Origin: Brevundimonas sp. NIBR10
GTDB lineage: Bacteria > Pseudomonadota > Alphaproteobacteria > Caulobacterales > Caulobacteraceae
Assembly: GCF_027912515.1 (NCBI RefSeq)
Contig: NZ_CP115464.1
Span: 434,001-498,000, forward strand
DNA length: 64,000 nt
Direction: 5' to 3'
The notes below the pieces were generated by a model. It was not told where the DNA came from, searched no databases, and saw nothing but the letters and a program-made list of their open reading frames with translations. Position numbers and translations under genes: made by a program. The stretch's first letter is position 1, and the number at the start of each line of letters is the position of its first letter. Below are positions 34,173 through 62,844 of the stretch, piece after piece.

Positions 34173-34212
34173 GCGCCTACGTTCGCGACGCGGTCGCTCA
34201 CTGCTTCAGGCG
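34173..34212 (-). repeat. 40-nt structured repeat, copy F (antisense, after SDR stop)
   Basis: Read on the minus strand: CGCCTGAAGCAGTGA, then the inner hairpin GCGACCGCGTCGC, then GAACGTAGGCGC. The outer CGCCT can pair with AGGCG. It starts 7 nt after the SDR stop, the same spacing as copy E after mdh. Confidence 0.8.
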
Positions 34213-34305
34213 CATGCTGCTTGCGTTGACGCCACGGCAGGTGCGTAGGTTCGACACGAAAGCGCGCGATCCCGGACACAGAAGCCGGACGCGAAGAGGA
34301 AACCC

Positions 34306-34345
34306 GCGCTCAAGCAGTGAGGCTCCGCGAGCCGAACGGTAGCGC
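34306..34345 (+). repeat. 40-nt structured repeat, copy A (thiolase leader)
   Basis: GCGCTCAAGCAGTGA, then the inner hairpin GGCTCCGCGAGCC, then GAACGGTAGCGC. The outer GCGCT pairs with AGCGC. It ends 22 nt before the thiolase ATG, in sense orientation. Confidence 0.85.
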
Positions 34346-34367
34346 CCTAGAACAAGGATGCATCCCC

Positions 34368-35570
34368 ATGCGTGAAGCCGTCATCGTCTCGACCGCCCGG
34401 ACCCCGATCGGTCGAGCCTATCGCGGGGCCTTCAACGACACCGCGCCCCAGCAACTGGGCGCTCATGCGGTCAGACACGCCGTCGCCCGCGCCGGTGTCG
34501 ATCCGGCCGAGATCGAGGACGTCGTCATGGGCGCGGCCCTGCAACAGGGCGGCACCGGCACCAATGTCGCCCGCCAGGTCGCCCTGGCCGCCGGGCTGCC
34601 GGCGTCGGTGCCGGGCATGAGCCTGGACCGCCAGTGCGCCTCTGGCCTGATGGGGATCGCGACGGCGGCCAAACAGGTGGTCTTCGACCAGATGAAGATG
34701 GCGGTCGGGGGCGGGCTGGAGTCCATCTCGCTGGTCCAGAACCAGCATATGAACCTGTACCGGATGAAGGACGAAGAGCTGCTGAAGCTGTCGCCCCACA
34801 TCTATATGTCGATGCTGGAGACGGCCGAGGTGGTGTCGCGCCGCTATGGCATTTCGCGCGACCGTCAGGACGAATACGCCCTGCGCTCGCAGCAGCGCAC
34901 GGCGGCGGCCCAGGACGCCGGTCGCTTCGACGCCGAGATCGTGCCGATGACCACCACCATGCAGGTGATGGACAAGGCGACAGGCCAGGCCTCGGCCAAG
35001 GAAGTGACCCTGTCCAAGGACGAAGGCAACCGCGCCGACACCACGCTGGAAGGCCTGAAATCGCTGAAGACCGTCTTCGGCGGCGGCGAGGAAATCCAGC
35101 AGGGCGAGTTCATTACCGCCGGCAATGCGTCCCAGCTGTCGGACGGCGCCTCGGCCTGTGTGGTCATGGAGGCGGGGGAGGCTGTGAAGCGGGCGCTGCA
35201 GCCGCTCGGTGCCTATCGCGGCATGGCCGTGGCAGGGTGCGAGCCTGACGAGATGGGGATCGGCCCGATCTATGCCGTGCCGATCCTGCTGCGCCGCCAC
35301 GGTCTGACCGTCGACGACATCGGCATCTGGGAGCTGAACGAAGCCTTCGCGGCCCAGGTGCTGCATTGCCAGGACGTGCTGGGCATTCCCGACGAGCGGC
35401 TCAATGTCTCGGGCGGCGCCATCTCGATCGGCCACCCCTATGGCATGTCGGGCGCGCGGATGACCGGCCACGTCCTGATCGAGGGCAAGCGGCGCGGCGC
35501 CAAATATGGCGTCGTCACCATGTGCATCGGCGGCGGCATGGGCGCAGCGGGTCTGTTCGAGATCTATTGA
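34368..35570 (+). CDS. Acetyl-CoA C-acyltransferase (thiolase)
   Basis: This 400-aa thiolase performs the last step of beta-oxidation or a biosynthetic condensation. The nucleophile Cys lies in [16 protein letters not shown] (near residue 88), the His motif is [19 protein letters not shown] and the second Cys is in [14 protein letters not shown]. The ATG at 34368 is chosen because the conserved start [19 protein letters not shown] follows; the longer open frame runs through repeat copy A. It is paired with the upstream SDR as an acyl-CoA degradation set. The 3' end overlaps the convergent WYL regulator gene by 7 nt. Confidence 0.95.
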
Positions 35571-36292
35571 TCGAACGGCGGGGAACCGGCGGCCTGATGC
35601 CGTCGGTGCTCTTCGTCCATCTTGGCCTGCCAGCGGGCGCGGAGTTGGGCCGGGCGGCCCGGATAGCGATCGTCCAGGAAGATCGCCGCCACCACCCGGT
35701 CCGTGCGGAAGGTGCGGAAGTCGGCGCGGCTCTCGCACCAGCCGACCAACAGTCGCGTCGTTTCGCGATAGCCGATCAGGAAGGGCCAGATGACGCGCCG
35801 GCTGGCCCGCCCCTGTTCATCCGAATAGTCTAGCGTCAGCTTGCGCCCCGCATGGATCCAGGCCCGGACCTGAGCCATGTCCAGTCGATCCGCCTCCGCC
35901 GGCTTCCAGACCGGCCCGGACGACACCGCCGGCTCCAGCACCACAGGCCGCAGTCGCTCCGGCACGGTCGCCGCGATCTTGGCCACCAGATCACGGGCGG
36001 CGCGGGCCAGGGCCGGGTCGCCGCGCCCGGCCACCCACTGGGCACCGAGCACCGCCGCCTCGATCTCGTCCGACGTCAGCATCAGGGGCGGCATGTCGAA
36101 GCCGCCCTCCAGCACATAGCCGATACCGGCCTCGCCCCGAATAGGCACCCGCTGGCCCATCAGGGCGGCGATGTCGCGATAGACGCTGCGTTTGGACGTC
36201 TCCAGCTCGACAGCGATCGCCTCGGCCGTCAGCGGTCGCGAACTGCGGCGCAGCAGCTGGACGATCTGGAACAGGCGGTCGGCGCGTCTCAT
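35564..36292 (-). CDS. WYL-domain HTH transcriptional regulator (YafY type)
   Basis: The 242-aa regulator has an N-terminal HTH_11 winged helix ([20 protein letters not shown] to [13 protein letters not shown], residues 1-60) and a C-terminal WYL domain (about 130-225: [20 protein letters not shown], then [19 protein letters not shown]). WYL domains bind nucleic-acid or small ligands. The ATG at 36292 opens the conserved HTH; the longer frame upstream is unsupported. Its leader carries repeat copy D 9 nt before the ATG. It is divergent from the GST gene and may control it; that is inference. Confidence 0.93.
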
Positions 36293-36301
36293 GAATTCAG
36301 G

Positions 36302-36341
36302 GCCCTGACGCTCGGCTCGCGGAGCCACGCTGCTTGAGGGC
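36302..36341 (-). repeat. 40-nt structured repeat, copy D (WYL regulator leader)
   Basis: Minus strand: GCCCTCAAGCAGCGT, then the inner hairpin GGCTCCGCGAGCC, then GAGCGTCAGGGC. The outer stem is GCCCT with AGGGC, a compensatory change from GCGCT/AGCGC. It lies 9 nt before the regulator ATG, in sense orientation. Confidence 0.85.
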
Positions 36342-36467
36342 GATTCCCTCCCTGAGGACGGCGATTGAGCGCGTCCGATTTCACCCTGGATCTTCGCTGC
36401 TGACAGCATGCTGGCAGCAGGGTGGCAATAGTCAATCCCTGCCGCCGGGGAGGGCTCGGCCGCCATC

Positions 36468-36507
36468 GCGCTCAAGCAGCGAGCCGCCGCGCGGCGAGCG
36501 ATAGCGC
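36468..36507 (+). repeat. 40-nt structured repeat, copy B (GST leader)
   Basis: GCGCTCAAGCAGCGA, then the inner hairpin GCCGCCGCGCGGC, then GAGCGATAGCGC. The inner stem differs from copies A, C and D at several paired positions yet remains complementary. It ends 17 nt before the GST ATG, in sense orientation. Confidence 0.85.
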
Positions 36508-36524
36508 ACAAGGAGGGTTTCATC

Positions 36525-37133
36525 ATGCTGACGCTGTTTCACGCCCCGCAATCGCGCTCGTCGCGCCTGGTCTGGCTGATCGAGGAGTTGGGGGCCGAGG
36601 TCGATATCCATTATTGCGACATCCTGCGCGGCGACGGTTCGGGCGCCCGGGATCCGCAAAACCCGCATCCGGACGGCAAGGTGCCGGCCCTGTTGCATGA
36701 CGGGGCGCTGATCACCGAGTCTGGAGCGGTCGCCGTCTATCTGGCCGGGCTTTATCCCGAGGCGGGTCTGGGTTTTCCGCAAGGGTCCCCCGAGCGCGGC
36801 GTTCTGTTGAGCTGGATGTTCTGGGCGGCGGGCGAGATGGAGCCGGCCTTCTGGGGCAGGATCAGCGGCGCGACGGGGACGGACCCGATGGCCCAACGCC
36901 GCTATGAACAGGCGACCAATCGGCTGATCGAGGCGCTGTGGGAGGGGCCGTGGTTGATGGGGGAGCGGTTCACCATCGCCGATGTCATCATCGGCAGCGC
37001 CCTGACCTGGGGACGGGCCTATCTGCCGGACAGTCCGGTGTTCGACCGCTATATCGGGCAGCTGAACGCCCGCCCGGCCAAGGTTCGCGCCGACGCGCGC
37101 GACGGCGATCTCACCCTGACGCGAGCCGCCTGA
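36525..37133 (+). CDS. Glutathione S-transferase family protein
   Basis: This 202-aa GST has a thioredoxin-fold N-terminal domain (MLTLFHAPQSRSSRLVWLIE), the cis-Pro region DGKVPALLHDGALITESGAV that binds glutathione, and an all-helical C-terminal domain. The substrate is unknown; detoxification or redox roles are typical. The strong ribosome site AAGGAGG (36510-36516) precedes the ATG. The leader carries repeat copy B. It is divergent from the WYL regulator. Confidence 0.92.
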   Translation: MLTLFHAPQSRSSRLVWLIEELGAEVDIHYCDILRGDGSGARDPQNPHPDGKVPALLHDGALITESGAVAVYLAGLYPEAGLGFPQGSPERGVLLSWMFWAAGEMEPAFWGRISGATGTDPMAQRRYEQATNRLIEALWEGPWLMGERFTIADVIIGSALTWGRAYLPDSPVFDRYIGQLNARPAKVRADARDGDLTLTRAA

Positions 37134-37193
37134 TGGCACCTGACGCGACGAACCGGCGAGACCTATACCGAGCGCTTTCCTGACGGATAGGCG

Positions 37194-38639
37194 TCAGGCC
37201 GCGTCGGCCTGGCTGTGATGGTGGAACGGGTCCTGATGGAACAGGGCGTCGCCGTCGCCCGTGATGACGACGTTCAGAAGGTCGCCGACGAAATCATCCC
37301 GCCATATGGCCACGTCCGTGTCGCGGACGACCTTCATCAGGGCCTGCCATTTCCGCACCCGTTCCTCCCGCGGCATGGTCAGGGCGCGTTTGATGGCGTC
37401 GGCGACCTCCTCGCGGCTGAAGGGATTGACCAGCAGGGCCTCGCCCATCTGTTCGGCCGCCCCCGCGAACCGCGACAGGATCAGCACGCCCGGATCCTCG
37501 GGGTTCTGGGCCGCGACATATTCCTTGGCCACCAGGTTCATGCCGTCACGCAGCGGCGTCACCAGACAGACCCGCGCGGCGCGGTAGATCCCGGCCAGCT
37601 GGTCCCGGCGATAGCTGCGGTTCAGATAGCGGATCGGCTGCCAGTCCATGTCGGCATATTCGCCGTTGATCCGCCCGGCCAGGGCGTCCAGCCGGGCCCG
37701 GATGTCCTGATAGGTGTCGACCTCGTCCCTGCTGATGGGTGTGACCTGGACCAGGAAGACGTCACCACGCATGTCGGGATTGTCGTGCAGGAACTGCTCA
37801 TAACCGAGCATCCGCTCCTCCAGCCCCTTGGAATAGTCGAGCCGATCGACCCCGACCATCATCGAGCGGAAGGCCGATGACGCCGCCATCCGGTCGTAGG
37901 TCCGATTGCCCTGGGGTGAATTCCGCGCGTCGATGAAGGCGTCCACGTCGATGCCGATCGGATAGACGCCCGCCTGGACCGTGCGGCCGAAACATTCGAG
38001 CCCGCCGTCGCCGACCAGATCACCCCTCGCCTCCGACACCACATAGTCGCGGAACAGGTCGAGCCATTCCTGGGTCTGGAAGCCGATCAGGTCATAGGCG
38101 AACAGGCTCTCCACCAGCCGACGATGGTGCGGCAGGGTCACCAGCAACTGCCGGGCCGGCCAAGGGGTGTGCAGGAAGAAGCCGATCCGGTTGGTCACGC
38201 CCAGCCGCCTCAGGTCCCGCGCGATGGGGATCAGGTGATAGTCGTGGATCCAGATGATGTCGTCCGGCTGGATCTGGGGCCGGAGGACCTCGGCGAACCG
38301 GGCGTTCACCCGCTCGTAGCCCTCGCCATAGGACCGCTCATAGGCGGTCAGGTCGACTCGGTGGTGGAACAGGGGCCACAGGGTCTTGTTGGCATAGCCA
38401 TTGTAGTATTCGTCGACGTCCTGGGCCTCCAGATCGACGAGGGCGACGGTCACACCGGCGCGGTCTTCCCATTTGATGTCGCCGGTGAAGTGATCGACGG
38501 TTTCGCCGGACCATCCGAACCACAGGCCGTCGTACTTGCGCAGGGCGGCGGACAGGGCCATGGCCAGGCCACCGGCCGAGCCGGCGGCGGGGTCGGCGGG
38601 GGCCGACACCCGGTTCGAGACAACGATAAGTCGAGACAT
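37194..38639 (-). CDS. otsA: Alpha,alpha-trehalose-phosphate synthase (UDP-forming)
   Basis: This enzyme makes trehalose 6-phosphate from UDP-glucose and glucose 6-phosphate; it is a GT20 of 481 aa. Visible motifs are [14 protein letters not shown] at the start, the Gly-rich [10 protein letters not shown] loop, [21 protein letters not shown] and [17 protein letters not shown], all characteristic of OtsA. Third gene of the operon otsB, GH15, otsA, 65 nt after the GH15 gene. Trehalose serves as an osmolyte and stress protectant, so control by stress is expected but no promoter was identified. Confidence 0.96.
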
Positions 38640-38704
38640 GCCCCTATAACGCCAAGCTCGGCGATTGGATCACGCCGATGAACCGGACGTGAACGGACTG
38701 TGCG

Positions 38705-40507
38705 TCAGCGGACATCAGTCCACGACCGGCTGAGCTCGATGGCGCAGTTGATGATCCCGACCAGAGAATAGGTCTGGGGGTAGTTGCCCCACAGTTCGTC
38801 ATCGCCCAGCGAGATGTCTTCGGACAGCAGGCCGGCGTTGGTCCGGCGCGACAGCATCTGCTCGAAGATCTCGCGCGCCTCTTCGGTGCGCCCGTTCTGA
38901 TGCAGGGCCTCGATGAACCAGAAGGTGCAGAAGTTGAACGCCGTTTCCGGCTCGCCGAAGTCGTCGGGGATCACATAGCGGAACAGATAGGGGCCCTTCT
39001 TCAGGTCGCGCTCGATGGCCTCAAAGGTAGCGACCTGGCGTGGATCGTCTGGCGTCAGGAAGCCCAGATCGACCAGTTGCAGCAGGGAGGCGTCCAGCTC
39101 GTCACCGCCGAACGAGGCCCCGAAGCGGCCCTCTGCGGGGATGAAGGTCTCCTTTTCGACCCGCGCGTGGATGATGCGGGCGCGGTCGGTCCAGAAGGCG
39201 GCGCGCTCGGCGAGGCCCAGATGATCGGCGGCCTTGGCCAGCCGGTCGCAGGCGGCCCAGCACATCACCGACGAATAGGTGTGGACCCGGGCGATGGTCC
39301 GAAACTCCCACAGACCCGCATCGACCTGGTCGTGCATGGCGAAGGCCCGCTCTCCGACCTTTTCCAGCGCATAGAAGTCGTCGATCGTGCCGGGACGCAG
39401 CAGGCGGGTGTCGTAGAAGCTCTGCACCAGCGGCAGGACGATCTGGCCATAGACGTCGTGCTGGAGATGTTCGCGGGCCTGGTTGCCGACGCGGACGGGC
39501 TCCATACCGCGATAGCCGGCGACCGAGGTGACGATCCGCTCGTCGATGTCCTCTTCCAGCCCGACGCCATAGACCGGCTGGACGTGCCCTCCGGCCGACT
39601 GATCGACCAGGTTTCGGAGGTAGACGAGGTAGTTCTCGAGGATGTCCACCGCCCCCAGCCGGTTGAGCGCGCGCACCGTGTAATAGGCGTCGCGGACCCA
39701 GCAGTAACGATAGTCCCAGTTGCGGCCGCTCTCGGGGAACTCGGGCACCGAGGTGGTCATGGCCGCGACGATGGCTCCGGTCTCTTCGTAGACGCAGAGC
39801 TTGAGGGTGATGGCGGCGCGGATCACCGCATCCTGATAGTCGAGCGGGATATAGAGGGTGCGGACCCAGTCCTTCCAGTAGGCGATGGTCCGGTCGAGCG
39901 TGGCGTTGACGCCGGGCCCGACCTCCTGGTCGTAGCCCTCGTCCGGACCGAGGAAGAAGGCCAGGGGCCGCTCCAGCCGGAAGGTCCGCTCCTCCAGGAT
40001 GTGCGACACCGGGCAGTCGGTGGTCAACCTCAGGGTGATGTCGGTGCACAGGTAGCGGATATGGTTCGAGCCCGAGGTCACCTCGGCCCGGCGCGCGCCC
40101 CAGTCGGCCGAGGGGCGCAGGCGGATGGTCACACGCGGGGCCCCGGCCAGCGGACGGATGATCCGGCTGAAGGCCAGCGGGCGGTAGGTCCGCGCATGCT
40201 TCATGTGCCGGGGCGCGAAATCGATGATCTCGACCGAGGCCCCGTCCTCGGCGGTCAGGACGGTCCTGAGCACGGGCGTGTTGCGGACATAGGCCTGGGA
40301 GACATCCTTCAGCCCCTCCAGCTCCACCGTCCAGAAGCCGTGCTCGGGCGTCTCACCGTTCATCAGGGCGGAGAAGACCGGGTCGCCGTCGATGCGCGGG
40401 GCGCAGGCCCAGACGAACCGGCCCTGACGGTCGATCAGGGCGCTGATCGAACAGTTGCCGATGGGGGCCAGGTCCAGGTTGGGGCGAAGGGGGGTCATGC
40501 CGCTCAT
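38705..40507 (-). CDS. Glycoside hydrolase family 15 protein (glucoamylase/trehalase-like)
   Basis: The 600-aa GH15 enzyme has an N-terminal beta-sandwich starting NLDLAPIGNCSISALIDRQG and an (alpha/alpha)6 barrel with NWDYRYCWVRDAYYTVRALN. The acidic catalytic region EEDIDERIVTSVAGYRGMEP lies near the middle, and WGNYPQTYSLVGIINCAIEL closes the protein. Such enzymes placed between otsB and otsA are often trehalases, or glucoamylases acting on alpha-glucans; the choice cannot be made from the sequence. The start overlaps the otsB stop by 4 nt (ATGA). An ATG 9 nt downstream is an alternative. Confidence 0.92.
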   Translation of the reverse strand: MSGMTPLRPNLDLAPIGNCSISALIDRQGRFVWACAPRIDGDPVFSALMNGETPEHGFWTVELEGLKDVSQAYVRNTPVLRTVLTAEDGASVEIIDFAPRHMKHARTYRPLAFSRIIRPLAGAPRVTIRLRPSADWGARRAEVTSGSNHIRYLCTDITLRLTTDCPVSHILEERTFRLERPLAFFLGPDEGYDQEVGPGVNATLDRTIAYWKDWVRTLYIPLDYQDAVIRAAITLKLCVYEETGAIVAAMTTSVPEFPESGRNWDYRYCWVRDAYYTVRALNRLGAVDILENYLVYLRNLVDQSAGGHVQPVYGVGLEEDIDERIVTSVAGYRGMEPVRVGNQAREHLQHDVYGQIVLPLVQSFYDTRLLRPGTIDDFYALEKVGERAFAMHDQVDAGLWEFRTIARVHTYSSVMCWAACDRLAKAADHLGLAERAAFWTDRARIIHARVEKETFIPAEGRFGASFGGDELDASLLQLVDLGFLTPDDPRQVATFEAIERDLKKGPYLFRYVIPDDFGEPETAFNFCTFWFIEALHQNGRTEEAREIFEQMLSRRTNAGLLSEDISLGDDELWGNYPQTYSLVGIINCAIELSRSWTDVR

Positions 40508-41313
40508 GCCGCCTTCTCCCCGACCGCGGCCTCAACCCCGTCGGCGACCGCCTCCAGCCAGGTCAGGACTGCGTCCACATTCTCAAGCATGTGGCTGGCC
40601 AGGGTTTCCCGCATCGGCCCGACCAGGACCCCGAAGCCCCCGAGGGCCGTCACGGCCCGGAACGCGTTCTCGTCCGTCAGGTCGTCGCCGAGCATCACCG
40701 GGGTTGCGCCCTGAAACGGCGGCTCAGCCATGAAGGCGGTGATCGCCGAGCCCTTGTCCGACCCGGGCGTCTTCAGCTCGACCACCATGACGCCGGGCTG
40801 GACCGACAGCCCGTGTTCGGCCGCGAGCGAGCGCGACAGGGTCAGGGCAGCCTGGCCAGCCTCGGGAGCCTGACGATAATGCAGGCCGACCGAAACGCCC
40901 TTTTCTTCGACGATCACCTCCGGGTGCTCGCCCTGGAAGGCGCGCAGCACCCGGGTCGCGGGCGCAATGCCGGGCGAGGCCGACGCGATCACCGTCGAAC
41001 CGTCCCGGCGACGACGTTGCAGCCCATGCACCCCGGATGCGGCCAGGGGGCCGGCCGCGCTGATCCGGTCGATCTCGGACAGGGTACGACCGCTGACGAT
41101 GGCCAGCCGGCCCTCAAGCCGCTCATCCAGACGGCGCAGCACCGCCGTCCGCCGCGCGACAGGGCCGACCGCGTCAGGGGTCTCGGCCAGAGGCGCGAGC
41201 ACGCCGTCCATGTCCAGAAACAGGGCCAGCCGATCGAACCGCACCGGCGGAGGCGTCAGGGCGAGCGGCCCCGTGGACGCGGCGTCGGGCGCACGAATTC
41301 CGGCGTTCGGCAT
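40504..41313 (-). CDS. otsB: Trehalose-phosphatase
   Basis: The 269-aa HAD-superfamily phosphatase removes phosphate from trehalose 6-phosphate. The DxD motif is LALFLDMDGVLAPLAETPDA (Asp nucleophile near residue 34), with IVSGRTLSEIDRI (motif II) and ELKTPGSDKGSAI plus VMLGDDLTDENAF (motifs III/IV). The ATG at 41313 is used because GGGAG precedes it; another ATG lies 12 nt upstream. It is first in the otsB-GH15-otsA operon. The promoter is in the 176-nt gap shared with divergent kdsD. Confidence 0.95.
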   Translation of the reverse strand: MPNAGIRAPDAASTGPLALTPPPVRFDRLALFLDMDGVLAPLAETPDAVGPVARRTAVLRRLDERLEGRLAIVSGRTLSEIDRISAAGPLAASGVHGLQRRRRDGSTVIASASPGIAPATRVLRAFQGEHPEVIVEEKGVSVGLHYRQAPEAGQAALTLSRSLAAEHGLSVQPGVMVVELKTPGSDKGSAITAFMAEPPFQGATPVMLGDDLTDENAFRAVTALGGFGVLVGPMRETLASHMLENVDAVLTWLEAVADGVEAAVGEKAA

Positions 41314-41489
41314 TGGATCTCCCATGGTCTTCAAGTCCCCTTGCACACCCCAACGCGCCACGACGGCAAAGGTTGGCGATTGGGCGAGCTTTGCCGGACT
41401 ACGACTTTCCGTAGGATTGTGCCGGGGGCCGATCTGGGGCAATTCCGGACCCGGAACGGGGCGATGGCCTCGGTCAGGACGCCTCGACC

Positions 41490-42482: not shown

Positions 42483-42735
42483 TCGGAAACCGTCAGGACA
42501 CCGCGATTGACCCTTCCCCGACAAGGGGTTACGTCAGTCAAAAGGCTCGCGGCACAGACCGTACGGGCACCGGACGCAACGGACGGAACGGGGAATTCTT
42601 GGACAAGGTTTGCCCTTCGCGCCACGGGCGTTCGCCAGCGTATCCAGTCGCCCGGCGGTTGTCCGCTACAGCGAGGCCGGCACTCCGCCTCTACCCGTTC
42701 GGGTCTCACGGGTCTTGCAGTCAGGTCGGCGTATC

Positions 42736-44019: not shown

Positions 44020-44097
44020 GGCCTGCGGGTCTCGCTGACGATCGAATCATCTCGCGGGGTCTGGCTCCAGGCCGCAAAGGCCGGTAATCACTGGCGT

Positions 44098-45255: not shown

Positions 45256-45259
45256 CGCC

Positions 45260-46233: not shown

Positions 46234-47244
46234 CTAAGCCGCTATCGCCAGTCCACCCATCGCGTCGGCCAGCAGTTCCAGCGAGCGGACGCGGTCGGCG
46301 TGGGACCAGATCTGGCTGGTGATCATCAGCTCGTCGGCGCCGGTGCGGGCGACGAAGGCGTCGATCTCGCGACGGACCGTGGCCGGCGACCCGACCGCCG
46401 AACAGGCCAGGGCCTGGGCGATCATGCCGCGTTCGGCCTCGCCCAGTGCCTGCTCATAGCCCTCGACCGGCGGCGGCAGCTTGCCCGGGCGGCCCGAGCG
46501 CAGGTTGACGAAGGCCTGCTGGACCGAGCTGAACAACAGTCGCGCCTGATCGTCGGTCTCGGCCGCAAAGACGTTGAAACCCAGCATCACATAGGGCTTT
46601 GCCAGCCGGTCGGAGGCCCGGAAGGTCCGGCGATAGGTCTGGATCGCCGCCATCATCTCGGACGGGGCGAAATGGCTGGCAAAGGCGTAGGGCAGGCCCA
46701 GATGCGCCGCCAGCTGGGCCCCATAGGTGGATGAACCCAGGATCCAGACCGGGATGTCCTGGCCCTCGCCGGGATTGGCGCGGATGCGCTGGTCCTCGGT
46801 CGCCGGGGCGAACCAGTGCATCAGCTCCATCACATCCTGGGGGAAGTTGTCGACGTCCCCCTGGAGCGTGCGCCTCAGGGCCCGCGCCGTGGCCATGTCC
46901 GAGCCCGGCGCGCGACCCAGACCCAGGTCGATACGGCCGGGATGGAGAGCCGCCAGGGTGCCGAACTGTTCGGCGATGACGAGGGGCGCGTGGTTCGGCA
47001 GCATGACCCCGCCCGCTCCGACGCGGATCGTCTTCGTCGCCGCCGCCACGGCCCCGATCACCACCGAGGTCGCCGCCGAAGCGATGCCCGCCATATTGTG
47101 GTGCTCGGCCAGCCAATAGCGGTTGAAGCCCAGCCGCTCGGCGTGGCGGGCCAGATCGATCGTGTTGGCGAGCGCTTGCGACACATCCGAGCCTTGCGGC
47201 ACCGGGGCGAGATCGAGGATCGACAGGGTGGTCATGGACGCCAT
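46234..47244 (-). CDS. LLM-class flavin-dependent oxidoreductase (luciferase-like)
   Basis: This 336-aa monooxygenase-like protein of the bacterial luciferase fold is close to E. coli YhbW by motif: [56 protein letters not shown] and [14 protein letters not shown]. Flavin (FMN) binding is expected; the physiological substrate is unknown. ATG at 47244 and 47235 are both possible; the longer is listed because the extra residues fit the family leader length. No operon partner. Confidence 0.92.
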
Positions 47245-50131: not shown

Positions 50132-52987
<2,856 letters not shown>

Positions 52988-54195: not shown

Positions 54196-55577
54196 GCCGG
54201 ACGCCACCGCCCCCCGGCAAGCCCTCGGCCGGCCAGAAGTTCGAGGCGGCGGTCGGCAAGGCGCTGGATCCCTTCGCCTCGGCCCTGAAGCGCGCCACGA
54301 CGCCGACAGCCCCCGCGCCTGCAGCGCCCGGCAAGCCCGGTCTGGCCGTCTCGCCCCTGGCCGTGCCCTTCCCGACCATCCCGCCCATCGGTGGGGTCGA
54401 GATCGCGACGGCGCGCGCGGGCTTCTACAAGCACGAGCGTGACGACCTGGTGGTCTTCTCCTTCGCCAAGGGCACGACCTGCGCCGGCGTCTTCACGCGG
54501 CACAAGATCGGCTCGGCCCCGGTGGACTGGTGCAAGCGGCACCTCGACGCGGCCGAGGGCGGCAAGGATGTGCGCGCCCTGGTGGTCAACGCGGGATGCG
54601 CCAACGCCTTCACCGGCAAGGCCGGGGCCGACGCGGCCCGCCGCACGGCCTCAGAAGTGGCAAAACGTTTCGGCTGTCGCCAGCGCGACGTCATGCTGGC
54701 CTCGACCGGGGTCATCGGCGTGGTGCTGGATGACAAGAAGATCGCCGCCCGGATGCCCGACATCGAGGCGGGTCTCGACGCCGACGGCTGGGCTCGCGCC
54801 GGTCGCGGCATCATGACCACCGACACCTTCCCCAAGGGGTCCTATGCCGAATGCCTGATCGACGGCGAAAAGGTCAGGATCGCCGGGATCGCCAAGGGGT
54901 CGGGCATGATCGCCCCGGACATGGCGACCATGCTGGCCTTCATCGTCACCGACGCCGACATCCATCCCGGCGTGCTGCGCGCCCTGCTGGGCCTGCACGT
55001 CCGCACCACCTTCAACTCGGTGACGGTGGATGGCGACACCTCGACCAACGACACCTGTCTGATGTTCGCCACCGGAGCCTCCAACGCGCCGCGCATCGGC
55101 CGGGTCGGCGACCGGCGGCTCAAGGAGTTCTCGGCGGCCCTGGACAAGGTCATGCTGGACCTGGCGCACCAGCTGGTGCGCGACGGCGAGGGGGCGACCA
55201 AATTCGTGCGGATCACCGTGGACGGCGCCGCCTCGCCCGCCTCGGCCCGCAAGCTGGCCAAGTCGATCGCCGACAGCCCCCTGGTCAAGACCGCCATCGC
55301 CGGCGAGGACGCCAACTGGGGCCGGGTCGTCATGGCCGTGGGCAAGACCGAAGAACCGGTCGACCGCGACGCCCTGGCCATCCGTTTCGGCCCCAATATC
55401 GCAGCCATCGACGGCGCCCCGTCCCCGACCTACGACGAGGCCGCGATGTCGGCCTATATGAAGAACCCCGAGATCGACATCACCGTGGACGTCGGCTCGG
55501 GCCGGGCCTCGGCAACGGTGTGGACCTGCGACCTGACCAAGGGCTACATCGAGATCAACGGGGACTATCGGAGCTGA
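54192..55577 (+). CDS. argJ: Bifunctional ornithine acetyltransferase/N-acetylglutamate synthase
   Basis: ArgJ transfers acetyl from N-acetylornithine to glutamate in the cyclic arginine pathway. The precursor self-cleaves at the Ala-Thr-like site; here MLASTGVIG places the nucleophile Thr172. Other motifs are VVNAGCANAFTGKAG, TDTFPKGSYAECLIDGE, VDGDTSTNDTCL and NWGRVVMAVGKT. The 461-aa length exceeds the typical about 405-413, owing to an extra Pro/Ala/Lys-rich N-terminal segment (residues about 1-65). Its start overlaps the PpiC lipoprotein stop. The enzyme is cytoplasmic. Confidence 0.95.
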   Translation: MSRTPPPPGKPSAGQKFEAAVGKALDPFASALKRATTPTAPAPAAPGKPGLAVSPLAVPFPTIPPIGGVEIATARAGFYKHERDDLVVFSFAKGTTCAGVFTRHKIGSAPVDWCKRHLDAAEGGKDVRALVVNAGCANAFTGKAGADAARRTASEVAKRFGCRQRDVMLASTGVIGVVLDDKKIAARMPDIEAGLDADGWARAGRGIMTTDTFPKGSYAECLIDGEKVRIAGIAKGSGMIAPDMATMLAFIVTDADIHPGVLRALLGLHVRTTFNSVTVDGDTSTNDTCLMFATGASNAPRIGRVGDRRLKEFSAALDKVMLDLAHQLVRDGEGATKFVRITVDGAASPASARKLAKSIADSPLVKTAIAGEDANWGRVVMAVGKTEEPVDRDALAIRFGPNIAAIDGAPSPTYDEAAMSAYMKNPEIDITVDVGSGRASATVWTCDLTKGYIEINGDYRS

Positions 55578-55657
55578 CCAAGGCCCCCATTCGGTTGTAG
55601 CGACTTGACTCAAGCGCGAACCGTGTTCGACGATTGAGCAAGTTTTGGGGGAACGGT

Positions 55658-56266
55658 GTGCGCTGGGAGGATTTCCGGGAAAATTCGGGCTGGCTGGTCG
55701 CGGTATCGGTGCCGTTGATCGCTGGAATCGGCTTCCTCGTCCAACGCCACTATGCCGCCAGGGAAACGGCACCGCCCGCCACGTCGCTGCCCGCTGTCTT
55801 GAGGCCAGCCGCGCCCGAGTCGCCGGCGACAATACCGACCGTGACGCCGCCACCGCCTGCGCCGAAGGCGGCCGCCGTTGTTACCGTGCGTGACGCTCGC
55901 ATCGTCAGACAATCGGAAAACTCGTTCCGGCTGACCTACAAAGCTACATTTTCGGGCGACTTCCGGGGCGCGGAGGCCATTCGCTTCACCTCGGCCTCCG
56001 GTCTGTTCCACGGCATTTATCTGGCGGATTGCACGACGATCGACCTGTTGACAGAGACCGCTGAAAGCCGCTGGCCAATCATCCGCGGCCCGGTCGGCAC
56101 GGAGGTTGCCATCCGGGCGAACGCCCCCACGACCGTTTCAGTGATCGCTGAATGTGCCGAACCGATCACCGAGGGGAAAATCGCCTTCCGGTACGACGCC
56201 GTGCTGCCCGGAGGTCGATATTTCACCGACATCTTGCCGGACGTCACCGTTCACCCTCGCTCCTGA
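55658..56266 (+). CDS. Unknown single-pass membrane protein with Pro-rich linker
   Basis: I do not recognise this roughly 202-aa protein. It starts VRWEDFRENSGWLVAVSVPL, with one hydrophobic segment (about 12-30), a Pro/Ala-rich linker (about 35-80) and an extracytoplasmic beta-rich domain (about 85-202) containing FRLTYKATFSGDFRGAEAIR and two Cys (DCTT and ECAE) that may form a disulfide. The GTG at 55658 is chosen because GGGGG lies 7 nt upstream; TTG at 55634 is possible. Its 3' end overlaps the convergent HIT gene by 16 nt. Confidence 0.7.
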   Translation: MRWEDFRENSGWLVAVSVPLIAGIGFLVQRHYAARETAPPATSLPAVLRPAAPESPATIPTVTPPPPAPKAAAVVTVRDARIVRQSENSFRLTYKATFSGDFRGAEAIRFTSASGLFHGIYLADCTTIDLLTETAESRWPIIRGPVGTEVAIRANAPTTVSVIAECAEPITEGKIAFRYDAVLPGGRYFTDILPDVTVHPRS

Positions 56267-56670
56267 TCGAGGCCCGCCGCCAGCCCCGCCGTCTCGCCCT
56301 CCGCGCGCGGCACAGAAGCGCCCCGGCCCCAGATCGGATCGGGCCAGAGGGGATCGTCGTGGCGGCGGCCGACGATGTGGATGTGGAGCTGGGGCGTGAC
56401 ATTGCCGAGCGCCGCGGTGTTCAGCTTCTCCACGGGTCGTTCGAGGGCTTCGCCGACACGGCGGACCATGGCACCGACGGCAACAATCTCCTCGATCAGC
56501 ACAGCGCGCTGGCCCACATCGAGGTCGTCGAGCTGGGTCGCGCCGGGGACGCGCGGGATCAGCACCAGCCAGGGGAAGCGGGCGTCGTCCATCAGCCGCA
56601 GGTCCGACAGCGCCATCGGCGACAGGGCCACCGAATTGGCCAACAGGCGGGGATCGATCTCGAAGGTCAT
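56251..56670 (-). CDS. HIT family nucleotide hydrolase/transferase
   Basis: The 139-aa histidine-triad protein has the motif QLHIHIVGRRHDDPLWPDPI near residues 93-112, the HxHxH triad that cleaves phosphoramidates of nucleotides. WLVLIPRVPGATQLDDLD is the other typical segment. The ATG at 56670 is clear. Substrate unspecified. It overlaps the preceding convergent unknown gene. Confidence 0.9.
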   Translation of the reverse strand: MTFEIDPRLLANSVALSPMALSDLRLMDDARFPWLVLIPRVPGATQLDDLDVGQRAVLIEEIVAVGAMVRRVGEALERPVEKLNTAALGNVTPQLHIHIVGRRHDDPLWPDPIWGRGASVPRAEGETAGLAAGLDQERG

Positions 56671-56723
56671 GCGGCGATCCTAGCCTTAAGGGCCTTGCAA
56701 GGACGAGGCCCTAGACTGGTGCC

Positions 56724-57581
56724 ATGTCGATGATCGACCTCATTCTTCCGGCCGGCTGCGCGGTGGGCTTCGTCCTGCTGGAGCGGCTCGTCGCCTTGAA
56801 GCGGGGCCAGAAGGTCCTGCGCAGTGGCTGGCTGACGGATGTGCTTCACATCTTCGTCGGCGGGGCCGTGATCCGGCTGGGCATGATCGCCATCGCGGTG
56901 ATGCTGAGCCTGATCGCCGCCCCCCTCGTCCCGGGCCCGGTAGCGGACGCGGTCCGGGCTCAGCCGGTCTGGGCGCAGTATCTGGCGGTTCTGATCACCG
57001 CCGAGCTCGGCATCTACTGGACCCACCGGATGGCCCATGCGGTGCCGGTCCTGTGGCGCTTCCACGCCGTTCATCATTCCAGCCGCGAGCTGGACTGGAT
57101 GAGTTCGCACCGCGAGCATCCGGTCGAACAGCTGATGTTCTCGGGCGTGGCGCTCGCCCCTGCCATCGTGTTCGGGATCGAGCCCCTGCCGCTGCTGATC
57201 TATGGGGTGACCTATCATGTGCATGCGCTGCTGCTGCATGCCAACGTCCGGCTGGATTTCGGGCCCCTGGCCCAGGTCATCGGGTCGCCGCGCTTCCACC
57301 ACTGGCACCATGCCGATCAGCGCGAGGCCTATGACATGAATTTCGCCGCCCAGCTGTCGATCCTGGACCGGATCTTCGGCACCTTCCGCCTGCCGCAGAC
57401 GGGGCATCCTGAGCGGTACGGGGTCAGCGATCCGGTGCCGGAGGGGTTCGTCGGGCAGTTGGGTTATCCGATTGGGTCTCCCTTCTCCCAGAGGGTCGAC
57501 GAGGGATCGCATGCGATCCGAGGAGGGGTGGCCGCGAAGCGGACGGATGAGGGGTTCCGGCCTCAACGGGACGCACCGTAA
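56724..57581 (+). CDS. Fatty acid hydroxylase/sterol desaturase family membrane protein
   Basis: The 285-aa integral membrane di-iron enzyme has a His cluster: HRMAH (101-105), HAVHHSSRELDW (114-125), HREHP (129-133) and FHHWHHAD late in the protein, the metal ligands of this family. TM segments lie near 5-20, 40-70, 85-105 and 140-170. It may modify lipids such as carotenoids, sterol-like compounds or fatty acids. The last about 35 residues (from GYPIGSPFSQ) lie inside a 180-nt inverted-repeat element and do not look like family sequence. Confidence 0.88.
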   Translation: MSMIDLILPAGCAVGFVLLERLVALKRGQKVLRSGWLTDVLHIFVGGAVIRLGMIAIAVMLSLIAAPLVPGPVADAVRAQPVWAQYLAVLITAELGIYWTHRMAHAVPVLWRFHAVHHSSRELDWMSSHREHPVEQLMFSGVALAPAIVFGIEPLPLLIYGVTYHVHALLLHANVRLDFGPLAQVIGSPRFHHWHHADQREAYDMNFAAQLSILDRIFGTFRLPQTGHPERYGVSDPVPEGFVGQLGYPIGSPFSQRVDEGSHAIRGGVAAKRTDEGFRPQRDAP

Positions 57582-57656
57582 CCCCTCACCCTTTCGCGCA
57601 AGACCGGTCGCTGGCGCTCCCGGGCGCTCAAGCCCTCTCCCGATGGGAGAGGGAGG
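57477..57656. repeat. Inverted-repeat element overlapping the hydroxylase 3' end
   Basis: It opens with TCTCCCTTCTCCCAGAGGG and ends with CCCTCTCCCGATGGGAGAGG, the two ends being near reverse complements of each other. Inner arms TGAGGGGTT and AACCCCTCA also pair. No transposase is inside. The CDS stop at 57581 lies within it. Confidence 0.6.
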
Positions 57657-58580
57657 CTAGCTCAATCCGTAGACCACGCAGGCGCTGTCGGTCATCGTCT
57701 GCAGCGGCGGTTGCAGGGCCAGGCGGGCAGCCTCGATCTGGGCCTCGTCGGGTGCTTCGCCGGGCCGAACGGGCCTCGGCGGAGGCGGTGGCGCTGCGGG
57801 CGGCGCCATCAGGGCTTCGGACCGGGTCATGCGTGATCCCGTGACCACAACCTCATCCACATCGGTCTGCATCTGCCCGCCGCCCGCGCTGTAGGAGGGC
57901 CAGCCGGCCAGGACGTCGGTCTGGCAGGCCCGGCCCGTGGGGTCGATGACCCGGACCGAACCCAGGGTCGCGCCCGCGTTCTCGGCCGCCGCGACGGCCC
58001 GGCGGCGCGCATCCTTCATGGCCTCGGCTGCCAGGGCGGTCTTCCAGGCGTTCTCGGGCTCGAGGTTGAAATAGACGGGGCTGAGCGTCGTCGGCTGGGT
58101 CGCCACCACCGTGGCATAGGCCCGTTCCAGCACCGCGATGTCGCGGATGGTCAGCCGGACCGAGGCCTCGGTCTGGTAGCGGACGATCTTGTCGGCGCGC
58201 ACGTTGTCGCGCATCACCCCCGCCTCGTCGCGATACTGTTCATAGATCGGCCGGGTGGTCAGGCTGGTCTCGACCCGCACCTTGTCGGCGCCATAGGTCG
58301 CCAGTTGCTGGGACAGGGCGCGAACGAGGTCGGCGGCCTTGCGCGACGCCTCGGCGGCCGAACGGTCCAGGGCGGTGAAACCGGCGGTGAAGCCCGCCCG
58401 GTTGGCGGCGATCTCGGTCCGCACCTGGCCGATCGAGGCGATCACCGGATCGCGCATCCACCAAGGGGCGGGGACATACTGCTGGCCGATGGTCGCAGGT
58501 GGAGTCTGGGCCAGGGCCTGACCGGGCACCAGCGGGGCCGCGAGACCGGCCGCCAGAAGGCCGAAGAGGATGGGACGCAT
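57657..58580 (-). CDS. SIMPL-domain (DUF541) exported protein
   Basis: The 307-aa protein has a signal peptide (MRPILFGLLAAGLAAPLVPG, then QALA) and an oxidative-stress-defence-like SIMPL domain (about 60-240), with YQTEASVRLTIRDIAVLERA and YFNLEPENAWKTALAAEAMK typical of the family. The tail is Pro/Ala-rich. Periplasmic; function of these proteins is not established. The stop is next to the hairpin element at 57633-57656. Confidence 0.85.
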   Translation of the reverse strand: MRPILFGLLAAGLAAPLVPGQALAQTPPATIGQQYVPAPWWMRDPVIASIGQVRTEIAANRAGFTAGFTALDRSAAEASRKAADLVRALSQQLATYGADKVRVETSLTTRPIYEQYRDEAGVMRDNVRADKIVRYQTEASVRLTIRDIAVLERAYATVVATQPTTLSPVYFNLEPENAWKTALAAEAMKDARRRAVAAAENAGATLGSVRVIDPTGRACQTDVLAGWPSYSAGGGQMQTDVDEVVVTGSRMTRSEALMAPPAAPPPPPRPVRPGEAPDEAQIEAARLALQPPLQTMTDSACVVYGLS

Positions 58581-58736
58581 GCGAATCTCCCTGTCTTGAT
58601 TGGCTCAACCGTCCCGCGTTTTGCCGGAATGGGGAAGCGGTTTCAGACCGTCGGTCACGCGACAACGGGTCTGAAAGATCTGACAGGGAGTCTGCGGCCC
58701 TGGAAAAGGCGGAGGGTCAGGCGAAGGCGGCGGGCG

Positions 58737-59582
58737 TCAGATCAGCCCGCTGACATGATCGAACATGCCCTTGAAGGGCGGAGCAGGCGACAGGTCCGCC
58801 CGGTCGAACTCGGCGTAAGCGGCATAGGATTCCCAGACGAAGCCGGCCAGGTCCGTATGGCGGAAGACCATGTCGCGCTTGAAGTTGTAGGAACCTTCGA
58901 TCCCCAGGACCTCACCGATTTCGGGATAGACCGGCCAGCAGGGGCCGTTTCTCAGACCGTCGTAGGGCCGGAATTCGGAATCCTGAACCTCGACGCCGCC
59001 GGCGACGAGAAAGGCCTTGGCGACATCATAGATCACCTCGATCTTGGGGTGATCGCTCGAATGCATGAAGGAGCCGTAGCGGCCCCAGCGCACGAACTGC
59101 TCGGAAATGTCGATGCCGTGGGTCTTGAACTGGTTGAGGACGGTGGCCTTCTGCGGCTCCCAGTAGTCGAAATAGCCGCATTGCTCGAAGAATTTGGCGT
59201 TGAACAGCGCCACGGCATCCTCGAACGACAGTCCCTTCATATAGGCCGCGAAGGCGATCAGGGAGTGGTAGTTGCCCAAGGGCCCGCGCACCGCGCCGGC
59301 CGGGCCGTTGACGTAGCTCAGGTCAGGATGGAAGCCGGAGAACGACAGGGCCGGCACCCGCGTCAGGTTGGGCGCGTTCGGCAGGCCGTTGGGGATGAAG
59401 GCCTCGACCTCGGGTGAAACCACCACGCGGAAATAGTCGGAGAAGGACGCTTCCCATTTTTCGACGTCGTTCAGATAGCCCCAGATATCCAGGCCGGTCA
59501 CATCGAAACGCCGATTCAGGAGCTGGAACGAGTTGGCCAAGCCGACAGTCTGGCAGTTGGAGATAAGTAGCCAGCGTTCCAT
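58737..59582 (-). CDS. WcbI-like polysaccharide-associated protein
   Basis: The 281-aa protein opens MERWLLISNCQTVGLANSFQ, an LxSNCQ start as in the WcbI family of putative polysaccharide acetyltransferases. Other segments are PNLTRVPALSFSGFHPDLSY and SFMHSSDHPKIEVIYDVAKA, the latter with conserved-looking His and Asp. No TM segment or signal peptide. It stands alone, divergent from mdh. Family assignment rests on the N-terminal motif and overall pattern and is moderate. A role in modifying surface glycan is inferred. Confidence 0.6.
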   Translation of the reverse strand: MERWLLISNCQTVGLANSFQLLNRRFDVTGLDIWGYLNDVEKWEASFSDYFRVVVSPEVEAFIPNGLPNAPNLTRVPALSFSGFHPDLSYVNGPAGAVRGPLGNYHSLIAFAAYMKGLSFEDAVALFNAKFFEQCGYFDYWEPQKATVLNQFKTHGIDISEQFVRWGRYGSFMHSSDHPKIEVIYDVAKAFLVAGGVEVQDSEFRPYDGLRNGPCWPVYPEIGEVLGIEGSYNFKRDMVFRHTDLAGFVWESYAAYAEFDRADLSPAPPFKGMFDHVSGLI

Positions 59583-59698
59583 AATCTCTCGCGCACAATT
59601 TCCGGTGAGTTAGGGCGTAACGTCTCGTCAGGCAAGGACCGGGCCTAGCATGGCGCTTGACAGGCTGGCGGCTTGCCTGTGATCGGGCGTGCGTCTAG

Positions 59699-60712
<1,014 letters not shown>

Positions 60713-60719
60713 CCAGCGG

Positions 60720-60759
60720 GCGCTAACGCGCGCGACGCGGTCGCGCGCTGCTTGAGCGC
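60720..60759 (-). repeat. 40-nt structured repeat, copy E (antisense, after mdh stop)
   Basis: Minus strand: GCGCTCAAGCAGCGC, then the inner hairpin GCGACCGCGTCGC, then GCGCGTTAGCGC. The inner stem extends to 9 bp in this copy. It starts 7 nt after the mdh stop, the same spacing as copy F behind the SDR gene. Confidence 0.85.
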
Positions 60760-60776
60760 CTTTCGATCAAGAATGG

Positions 60777-60804
60777 GGGCCGCGGTGCAAACTGCGGCCC
60801 TTTT
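60777..60804 (+). terminator. Intrinsic terminator of mdh
   Basis: GGGCCGC (60777-60783) pairs perfectly with GCGGCCC (60794-60800) and is followed by TTTT (60801-60804). It directly abuts the stop of the convergent YbjN gene, so it may serve mainly mdh. Confidence 0.85.
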
Positions 60805-61368
60805 CTATTGTGCCGCAGGAGCCGCCGCCGCCCCGCCCACCGTCAGCCGGGCGAACTCGGGCAACAGGCCACGCCAGATGGCGAGGTGGTCGATGAGCTG
60901 GTCGGGGCCGTCGCCGGTCAGCAGGACGTCGTACTGGACCACCGCCGAGGCGGGGGTGGTGCCGTCCGGCGCCTCATAGATGGCCTTCAGGAATCGGCGG
61001 TCGCGGTTCCAGCCGTTGATCTTGTCGGGGGTAATGGTGGCGCTGGAGACGCCGGTCGAGAACTGCAGGTCCGAGCACATGCCGGCTGCGTCGCAGGACT
61101 GGAAGAACAGCAGCCAGCTGAGCCCGTCGGCCGAGACGCGCACGAAGGTGCGGCCCTCGTCGGTCTGGACCGGGCCGGGGGTGGTCCCCTGGGTGGTCAG
61201 CCAGGCGATGACGGCGGCGGGAGAAACCCCCTGGACCATGCGGGCCGGTGCGGCGGCGGCCGGGCGCGCAGCGGGGGCGGCGGCGACAGGCGCTGTCTGG
61301 GTCTGGGCCAGCGACAGGTCGGGCGTGGTGAGGGCGAGCACCGCGACGGCGGCGAGGGCGAGGGTCAT
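60805..61368 (-). CDS. Exported YbjN-domain protein
   Basis: The 187-aa protein starts MTLALAAVAVLALTTPDLSL, a signal peptide with a cleavage site near SLA-Q, followed by an Ala/Pro linker (about 25-45) and a YbjN-type domain (about 45-165: VIAWLTTQGTTPGPVQTDEG, FFQSCDAAGMCSDLQFST, INGWNRDRRFLKAIYE). Export of this chaperone-like fold is common in alphaproteobacteria. Function unknown. It runs convergent to mdh. Confidence 0.82.
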   Translation of the reverse strand: MTLALAAVAVLALTTPDLSLAQTQTAPVAAAPAARPAAAAPARMVQGVSPAAVIAWLTTQGTTPGPVQTDEGRTFVRVSADGLSWLLFFQSCDAAGMCSDLQFSTGVSSATITPDKINGWNRDRRFLKAIYEAPDGTTPASAVVQYDVLLTGDGPDQLIDHLAIWRGLLPEFARLTVGGAAAAPAAQ

Positions 61369-61424
61369 GTGCGGTGTCTCCAGCGGTCCGGCTCAGCCTA
61401 AGCTACAATACGGCGAAGTTGTGA

Positions 61425-61567
61425 GTTCTCCCTCCCCCGCGGGGGAGGGTGGTCGAAGCGCAGCGAAGACCGGGTGGGAAGGGCAAGGCAAGACAGCGCC
61501 GTATCACCTTGCCGCCCCCACCCGATCGCTTCGCGATCTGCCCTCCCCCGCAGGGGGAGGGAAGAAC
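61425..61567. repeat. Inverted-repeat (MITE-like) intergenic element
   Basis: Left end GTTCTCCCTCCCCCGCGGGG and right end CCCTCCCCCGCAGGGGGAGG (then GAAGAAC) are near reverse complements, each also a hairpin. Inner GACCGGGTGGG faces CCCACCCGATC. It is 143 nt long with no coding content, and similar in style to 6091-6288. It lies between the YbjN gene start and the zapE stop. Confidence 0.65.
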
Positions 61568-61575
61568 CGAATGCG

Positions 61576-62676
61576 CTACTCATGCGTCGCCTTCTCCAGC
61601 CAGCTGGCGCTGGCCATTTCGCGCAGGCGCGACGCGGTGCGCTCGAACTCGAAGGTGCCGTCGCCGGCGGGATACAGAGCCTCGGGCTCGGCGGCCGAGG
61701 TGGCGACCAGCCGGGTTCCGGCCTCGTACAGGGCGTCGATCAGGGTGACGAACCGCGCCGCCTCCTGACGGTTCTCGGGGCCGAGGCGGGGGATATCCGA
61801 CACGAACAGGGTGTGGAACCGCTGCGCCACCGCCAGATAGTCCTGCGGCCCCAGCGGCCGGGCGCAGAGGTCGGCGAAGGGGCTGCGCGCCAGGGACCCG
61901 GCGGTACGCTCGACCACGACATCGCGGCCCAGAACCGTCAGATGGGCCGGTTCCTCGGGCTCGCCGCCCTTGAGGTCGTACCACAGGGTCTCGAACGCCT
62001 GACGGCCCGCCACATCGTCGGCGAACCACACCGGTGAGCCCATCAGCCGATCAAGCCGCCAGTCGCGCGCCCCGGCGATCTCGATCACCGCGCAGCGGCT
62101 TTTGATCTCGTCGATGAAGGGGGTGAACAGCTGGCGGTTGATGCCGTTCCTGTAGAGTTGATCCGGCGCCCGGTTCGAGGTCACGGCCAGCACGACCCTC
62201 CTCTCGAACAGGGCGTCGAACAGCCGACCCAGGATCATGGCGTCGGCGATGTCGGTGACCTGAAGCTCGTCGAAGCACAGCAGCCGGGCCTCGGACGCGA
62301 TCAGGTCGGCGACCGGCTCGATCGGATCGTCGCCCTTGTGGCTACCGAACACGGCCTTGCGGCTCTTACGGTCGCCCTCGCGCCACTGGCGGACCAGGTC
62401 GTGGACCCGGGCCATGAAGGCGTGGAAATGGGCGCGCGTCTTTCTCGGCTCGGGCGAGGCCGAGACGAACAGGTCCATCAGCATCGACTTGCCTCGCCCG
62501 GGAGGCCCCCAGATGTAGAGACCGCGCACCTCGGGCTGTTTGCCGAACAGGCCCTTCTTCGCGAGGTCCTCCTCCAGCCGCTCCAGGGCCGCGATCAGCG
62601 GACCCTGCGCCGGATCGGGGGCGATGACGCCTTCCTCGACGCGGATGTCATAAGCGGAACGAATACGGGAGCCCAT
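61576..62676 (-). CDS. zapE: Cell division protein ZapE (AFG1-like ATPase)
   Basis: This 366-aa AFG1-family AAA-type ATPase has Walker A GPPGRGKSMLMDLF (57-64), Walker B LLCFDELQVTDIADAMILG and the arginine-containing VLAVTSNRAPDQLYRNGINR. It associates with FtsZ rings under stress in E. coli. The ATG at 62676 opens MGSRIRSAYDIRVEEGVIAP; a longer upstream frame is non-conserved. It runs divergent from asd with 186 nt between, part of which is repeat copy C. Confidence 0.93.
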   Translation of the reverse strand: MGSRIRSAYDIRVEEGVIAPDPAQGPLIAALERLEEDLAKKGLFGKQPEVRGLYIWGPPGRGKSMLMDLFVSASPEPRKTRAHFHAFMARVHDLVRQWREGDRKSRKAVFGSHKGDDPIEPVADLIASEARLLCFDELQVTDIADAMILGRLFDALFERRVVLAVTSNRAPDQLYRNGINRQLFTPFIDEIKSRCAVIEIAGARDWRLDRLMGSPVWFADDVAGRQAFETLWYDLKGGEPEEPAHLTVLGRDVVVERTAGSLARSPFADLCARPLGPQDYLAVAQRFHTLFVSDIPRLGPENRQEAARFVTLIDALYEAGTRLVATSAAEPEALYPAGDGTFEFERTASRLREMASASWLEKATHE

Positions 62677-62804
62677 CGAACTGGGGCATAGTCTTGCGCA
62701 AGCGATGTGAAAAGCGATGACTTCGCCCGCGCGAAGGCTTACATGCCTCGCCCTGCCGCAAGAAACCTTGCAGCAGACACGAAACCAACACCCACGCACC
62801 AACC

Positions 62805-62844
62805 GCGCTCAAGCAGCGAGGCTCCGTGAGCCGAGCGTTAGCGC
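62805..62844 (+). repeat. 40-nt structured repeat, copy C (asd leader)
   Basis: GCGCTCAAGCAGCGA, then the inner hairpin GGCTCCGTGAGCC, then GAGCGTTAGCGC. The outer GCGCT pairs with AGCGC. It ends 18 nt before the asd ATG, in sense orientation. Confidence 0.85.

Follow-up and report, generated by a model that had tools for sequence, protein, structure and literature searches.

A dispersed hairpin repeat at gene edges in Brevundimonas, probably a REP-like palindromic family of Alphaproteobacteria

The repetitive extragenic palindromes (REPs) of the GTAG superfamily are, as described in PMC3733652, palindromes of 20–40 nt that are mostly extragenic and dispersed, occur singly or in groups and have stems with complementary changes and alternative loop types. 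The CGTC REPs of alphaproteobacteria, in which the same paper includes dRS3, RPE-4 and RPE-6, are described there as being without a dedicated transposase and are defined by a terminal CGTC (or TGTC, CCTC) tag, an AT-initiated stem of 8–9 bp and a CCA-like tail. Here, we analyse a hairpin repeat of Brevundimonas sp. NIBR10 (assembly GCF_027912515.1) that was noticed in a first-pass annotation of a stretch of 64,000 nucleotides (contig NZ_CP115464.1, positions 434,001–498,000 of the forward strand; hereafter the window), in which it is present in six copies of about 40 nt. The element is real and is widespread in the genus, and it is most likely to be a new relative or variant of the REP-like repeats. 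A search of open-licence papers, judged by title and the opening of the abstract, gave no description of it and Rfam (release 15) has no match in the window at gathering cut-offs, in line with the first-pass annotation, which had known of no named family.

The proposed unit is a hairpin. Its three outer base pairs vary and are followed by a CT/AG step, an internal loop that is asymmetric (CAAGYA opposite G(R)T) and a GC/GC step. At its apex would be a GAA loop in the 26-nt form, which other genera have, and a second hairpin in the Brevundimonas form of about 40 nt; a somewhat A-rich stretch often appears to follow. Like the GTAG REPs of PMC3733652, the family is short, dispersed, extragenic, multi-copy (53 copies in the genome, with 0/50 in genes) and found in tandem; its size, place and heterogeneity are common to REPs generally (PMC3733652 and PMC8266576). 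These likenesses, together with a TAG near one end, would suit a conventional REP family, with a GTAG or CGTC tag, that is mobilized by an REP-associated tyrosine transposase (RAYT), but we disfavour this explanation and give it hardly any credence. A terminal unpaired GTAG is missing: NTAG lies 4–7 nt from the end, with its AG base-paired to CT and a further paired triplet outside it, and the base preceding the TAG varies in Brevundimonas. The asymmetric internal loop further distinguishes the family from the GTAG REPs, and Y1 transposases of the RAYT type are nearly absent from the genus.

With the CGTC REPs, the family shares a mostly alphaproteobacterial host range, the lack of a dedicated transposase and heterogeneous stems and loops, whereas the CGTC end and the AT-begun stem of 8–9 bp are missing from its consensus (GCGCTCAAGCAGCGAG...CGAGCGNTAGCGC). 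No conserved tag was found in the 5′ flank of 50 NIBR10 copies. As the family has neither a terminal GTAG nor a terminal CGTC tag, we call it REP-like and assign it to neither superfamily. A palindrome resembling a CGTC REP (CGTCATTCCCGCGAAAGCGGGAA) was seen by eye within the centre of one NIBR10 copy (3411072). The published REPs analysed adjoin the 3′ ends of genes (PMC3733652), whereas the Brevundimonas element is often located close ahead of start codons. The palindromic elements of Rickettsia, which PMC3733652 also mentions, may sit in frame in genes, as do three copies in one locus of a relative (L072); the copies examined here are, however, nearly always extragenic, and this comparison is one of descriptions, not of sequences. 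The three L072 copies (positions 1360–2700, genome G012) are located in or beside the N-terminal leaders of consecutive pseudopilin genes, apparently in frame, and precede a GFTLVEL or GFTLIEL motif, with a second palindrome (GCCGCGGTCACAAGGC...) also present. From the motif, we take these genes to be gspG/H/I-like. The second palindrome, sought in the NIBR10 genome with ≤3 mismatches, gave 41 matches against 34 for a control, which is not above chance. The CIR repeats of Caulobacter, which are intergenic inverted repeats of over 100 bp tied to CcrM sites, occur in the same bacterial family and are likewise intergenic, whereas the present element is mostly 26–48 nt in length and its consensus lacks GANTC.

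Paired changes keep the hairpin, and the copies in Brevundimonas are dispersed, tandem, variable between species and placed at gene edges with a polarity. A genome-wide search with a covariance model, as the first-pass annotation had proposed, was carried out on the host replicon (a single contig of 4,006,378 bases) and returned 53 copies at E ≤ 0.01. The model (R1) and its alignment (A1) were built from 29 copies, comprising 27 collected by the exact string GCGCTCAAGCAG and two window copies, with 24 distinct rows; L023 and L026 (non-members by eye), L016 (a longer variant) and 5/35 exact-string places without a locus were left out. Five of the window copies match R1 in the whole genome with E values of 1.4e-12 to 5e-15 and the sixth with an E value of 2e-9, all six being in the training set. 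Over the 24 distinct rows, paired cells amount to 96.5%, compared with 84.9% in shuffled alignments and ≤49.8% with the partners slid. Five pairs show changes on both sides. The covariation score reaches 0.284, compared with 0.091 in shuffles and ≤0.051 with slid partners; two weaker measures, the pairs changed on both sides and the further pair types, were equalled by 22/500 and 55/500 shuffles, respectively. A1 understates the variation of the outer stem because the exact string used for most copies covers its 5′ side, and the model search added the outer stems GGG/CCC, TCC/GGA, TTC/GAA and TCG/CGA. Chance or a low-complexity artefact is ruled out by the model E values and the shuffles.

The first-pass annotation had taken the covariation of the window copies around a fixed CAAGCAG core as a sign of a selected structure. 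That a hairpin with an invariant CAAGCAG side has been maintained is well supported, also at one orthologous site (asd). However, the window's three types of inner stem did not each arise by compensation on the spot: a small set of types is found again and again across the genus. Much of the covariation seen within a single genome thus reflects the common history of the family, and some of it resembles an exchange of the hairpin centre as a block. In 5/50 copies (1221747, 3386688, 3975701, 3411072 and 3608122; by eye) another palindrome lies in, or replaces, the inner hairpin. Upstream of NIBR10 copies 58030, 171146, 258368 and 1257760 we observed a different palindrome family (CCTCCCC...GGGGAGG or similar).

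The asd site was compared in the best 80 of 571 loci, in which the non-carriers include outgroups and a few records are apparently mis-binned. The element is found upstream of asd at the same place in 59/80 loci and is missing in 21; its presence requires six changes on the asd tree, compared with 18.7 in shuffles. The inner triplet pair, with absence treated as a state, requires 32 changes compared with 51 in shuffles and occurs in eight kinds: GCT/AGC (17), CGA/TCG (11), GCC/GGC (10) and CCG/CGG (9), and more rarely CGC/GCG (5), CCA/TGG (3), ACG/CGT (3) and GCG/CGC (1). These triplets are Watson–Crick at a fixed offset in 53/59 carriers and in 59/59 with a one-base shift allowed for the 3′ triplet, at least one row (L271) being degenerate by eye. 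The outer triplets are Watson–Crick in 56/59, where the parser took the best of several lengths. Since three pairs change at once, the centre appears to have been replaced as a block from other copies. Furthermore, a mini-hairpin, GTCCGAAGGAC, is present in 49/59 carriers and in 0/21 loci without the element, one non-carrier (L272) having a shorter CCGAAGGA.

For the analysis of position, gene edges were taken from a simple gene caller of our own trained on the window, and the context was read for 50 of the 53 NIBR10 copies, the remaining three being weak matches (E of 8e-5 to 4e-3). The tracking of gene boundaries reported in the first-pass annotation is borne out, as 0/50 strong copies lie within predicted genes and the placement is far from random. 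With eight tandem copies dropped, the 3′ side is nearer to a boundary in 35/42 NIBR10 copies (sign test, p = 1.5e-5), and with them kept in 38/50 (p = 3e-4). A boundary lies ≤30 nt away on the 3′ side in 32/42 copies (12 same-strand start codons, 17 opposite-strand stop codons and three opposite-strand RNA 3′ ends, those of the signal recognition particle (SRP) RNA, 6S RNA and tRNA-Leu) and on the 5′ side in 6/42, all of which are same-strand stops. In relatives, 73 copies were found in 57 loci. Three copies inside or overlapping genes were dropped, and the 70 that were kept include one mis-parsed 51-nt copy (L111, 1515); of the 68 that have a gene on either flank, 54 have the closer boundary at their 3′ side, with a p-value (1e-6) that is too small because homologous sites remain in the set. 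For the SRP RNA, 25/30 loci (best 30 of 60 matches; by eye) have a reversed copy beyond the 3′ end of the RNA, and these trailers hold one or two copies with differing inner stems. Often, the 3′ end of the element is directly followed by a mini-hairpin that has a GAA loop (L003, L004, L005, L008, L014, L020 and L024; by eye), and ahead of genes the 3′ arm of this mini-hairpin holds GAAGGA or GAAGGG, resembling a ribosome-binding sequence. At 46383 of the NIBR10 genome, a reversed copy begins 1 nt past the stop of a gene, the product of which presumably resembles the cell-cycle regulator GcrA at its N-terminus.

Such positions could also reflect a cis-acting RNA hairpin under selection in untranslated regions, which would tune translation or protect the mRNA in a 5′ leader, where it would lie immediately ahead of the ribosome-binding site, and protect the transcript at a 3′ end; we hold this to be possible but unlikely. 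It would fit the 12/50 NIBR10 copies that lie in the sense orientation 7–29 nt ahead of a predicted start (8/12 before an AAGG-like sequence; by eye), the confinement of the asd mini-hairpin to carriers and the reversed copies that follow the SRP RNA in relatives and the 6S RNA and tRNA-Leu of NIBR10. However, the carrier genes are very different, both orientations relative to transcription occur and the copy number differs many-fold between species, with none in some. A riboswitch-like or ribosomal-protein leader was rejected, as many unrelated genes carry the element.

The polarity would also be expected of a transcription barrier or insulator that admits RNA polymerase into a gene and blocks it on leaving. 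For boundaries ≤30 nt away, starts are 27 sense and four antisense and stops plus RNA 3′ ends are 50 antisense and 14 sense (NIBR10 without inner tandem copies, and relatives with homologous sites included), but we consider such a barrier very unlikely, since no T-run follows the element in either direction and the stops of the short form discussed below are reversed (33 antisense versus 55 sense). An intrinsic-terminator-like site lies beyond the reversed copies at gene 3′ ends in 4/20 cases (0/200 random stretches), although there is none in 16/20. As an intrinsic terminator, the element itself was rejected: no T-run is found in either direction and T makes up 13% of positions +1 to +10 of the 3′ flank. 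The last ten bases of the 5′ flank contain 26% A (equivalent to T read in reverse).

R1 matches were found in 37/37 genus genomes of one sample (8–93 per genome) and, for the other families of the order, in 5/24 genomes. A sample of the family, with about 22 candidates scored per genome, gave matches in 70 genus genomes, none in at least three others (G140, G225 and G257) and weaker ones in four other genera. Among 28 copies listed from other genera, the element is mostly 26–27, 35–36 or 48 nt in length; GAA or a different hairpin takes the place of the Brevundimonas apical hairpin, while NNN-CTCAAGYAGCG and AGCGNTAG-N′N′N′ are kept. The core of the short form was found with ≤1 mismatch in 15/385 alphaproteobacterial genomes, compared with one control match in all, and exactly in at least 120 stretches of viral contigs, a few contigs being repeated; the constancy of this core is no evidence because the search pattern fixed it. 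The outer triplets pair (G–T allowed) in 143/153 places, in 17 kinds, the flanks being distinct and some homologous places still included. Starts keep the bias in the short form (38 sense, 14 antisense), and its 3′ flank is A-rich (47% A in +1 to +10); that of the NIBR10 copies is mildly so (33% A versus 26% in the 5′ flank; 28% A in +1 to +7 at stops). Rfam gave six matches at E ≤ 1 in five short-form loci, none of them on the copy, and one 40-mer gave no match to plasmid and phage records. At 38/153 places (L298–L477, other genera and viral contigs), a reading frame of 60 codons or more begins with an ATG 2–25 nt past the 26-nt hairpin; in 21 of these 38 the ATG is only 4–8 nt past, which leaves little room for a normal ribosome-binding site. 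Some of the gene clusters at these places resemble those of gene transfer agents.

Tandem copies in NIBR10 are separated by spacers of 7–14 nt, with one of 24 nt, and the copy number at one site varies among relatives, with up to four in the thiolase leader and variation also at the SRP RNA 3′ end. At the 34173 site, two relatives with flanks 81–86% identical align without a copy and are net shorter. Additionally, at the GST-like (glutathione S-transferase-like) site, the same by position, a copy is present in relative L501 and none in L504, the sequence without it being net shorter. The presence/absence pairs of two comparisons (102 and 86) are not used as counts because most of the 40 listed from the 102 differ only in tandem number and the 86 share this flaw. 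Being dispersed, tandem, gained and lost, and present in viral contigs, the element behaves no less like a mobile repeat of the REP kind than like a functional RNA. We regard it as probably a family of REP-like palindromic repeats in Alphaproteobacteria that is non-autonomous, moved by a factor acting in trans and tolerated at gene edges. For its function and its mover, we infer that a folded single strand may be recognized through the internal loop by a trans-acting enzyme and copied to new places, with copies surviving where genes stay unbroken. The apical hairpin would be swapped as a block between copies by gene conversion or template switching, so that both sides would stay complementary. 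At a few sites, of which the asd leader is an example, the element may have acquired a use.

Several observations weigh against a mobile REP-like family. No target-site duplication was recognized at the compared sites with and without a copy (flanks 81–90% identical), few truly empty sites were found and, among the pairs listed, most differ in tandem copy number only. The RAYT-type Y1 transposase PF01797 has no match in the NIBR10 genome and matches in 2/74 genus genomes; with these types almost absent, another factor is probably the mover if the family moves here. Single-copy folding energies are not unusual (z of −2.5 to +0.3), the predicted DNA fold of the 26-mer and of both strands of one 40-mer differs from the proposed hairpin and, when two leaders were folded as RNA, the proposed hairpin was not seen in the one at 36453–36530. 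GCGAAGC is an exceptionally stable DNA mini-hairpin. Long retention at asd suits domestication better than a young mobile repeat. The element might instead serve to mark gene edges. It would then be an ancient hairpin of alphaproteobacteria, also present in viral sequences, whose fixed CAAGYA/GRT loop a dedicated protein reads with a polarity directed at the gene, and exchange between copies would keep substituting its apical stem as a complementary block; we consider this reading improbable.

In the window, the six copies lie where the first-pass annotation had placed them, with those at 34173, 36302 and 60720 on the minus strand. The inner stems are complementary as claimed, being GGCTC/GAGCC in three copies, GCGAC/GTCGC in two and GCCGC/GCGGC in one, as are the outer stems GCGCT/AGCGC, GCCCT/AGGGC and CGCCT/AGGCG. 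The 15-nt lead described as common to all is exact (plus strand) in only 2/6 (36468 and 62805), with one mismatch in two copies and two mismatches in one. The copy at 34173 is more degenerate than the other five; its best bounds are 34173–34213 (minus strand), with an outer stem of GCGCCT/AGGCGC, and it lies 7 nt beyond the stop of a short-chain dehydrogenase/reductase (SDR) gene on the opposite strand. The copy at 34306–34345 (plus strand) has a thiolase ATG (34368) 22 nt downstream. The copy at 36302–36341 (minus strand; outer stem GCCCT/AGGGC) lies 9 nt ahead of the start of a WYL-domain regulator (35564–36292, minus strand), and that at 36468–36507 (plus strand) lies 17 nt ahead of the ATG (36525) of the GST-like gene and is immediately followed by ACAAGGAGG. 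At 60720–60759 (minus strand), the copy is located 7 nt beyond the stop of a malate/lactate dehydrogenase gene (59750–60712, plus strand), with a hairpin resembling an intrinsic terminator on its far side. The last copy, at 62805–62844 (plus strand), has the asd ATG (62863) 18 nt downstream and is abutted by a mini-hairpin (GTCC-GAA-GGAC; 62845–62855, plus strand) which, on a basis that includes an RNA fold, contains the likely asd ribosome-binding sequence. Elsewhere in the window (20439–22608), two adjacent genes consist of pentapeptide-like repeats with a period of 15 nt, as read from the repeat output.

GTAG REPs are thought to be spread by RAYTs; the family described here is without the tag and, in the genus, nearly always without the transposase. 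With its unusual internal loop, its occurrence in viral contigs and the apparent swapping of its centre at a fixed site, it would be a clean system in which to ask what copies such hairpins, why they are found at gene edges and how palindromes stay complementary, and it would explain odd leader sequences in Brevundimonas genomes.

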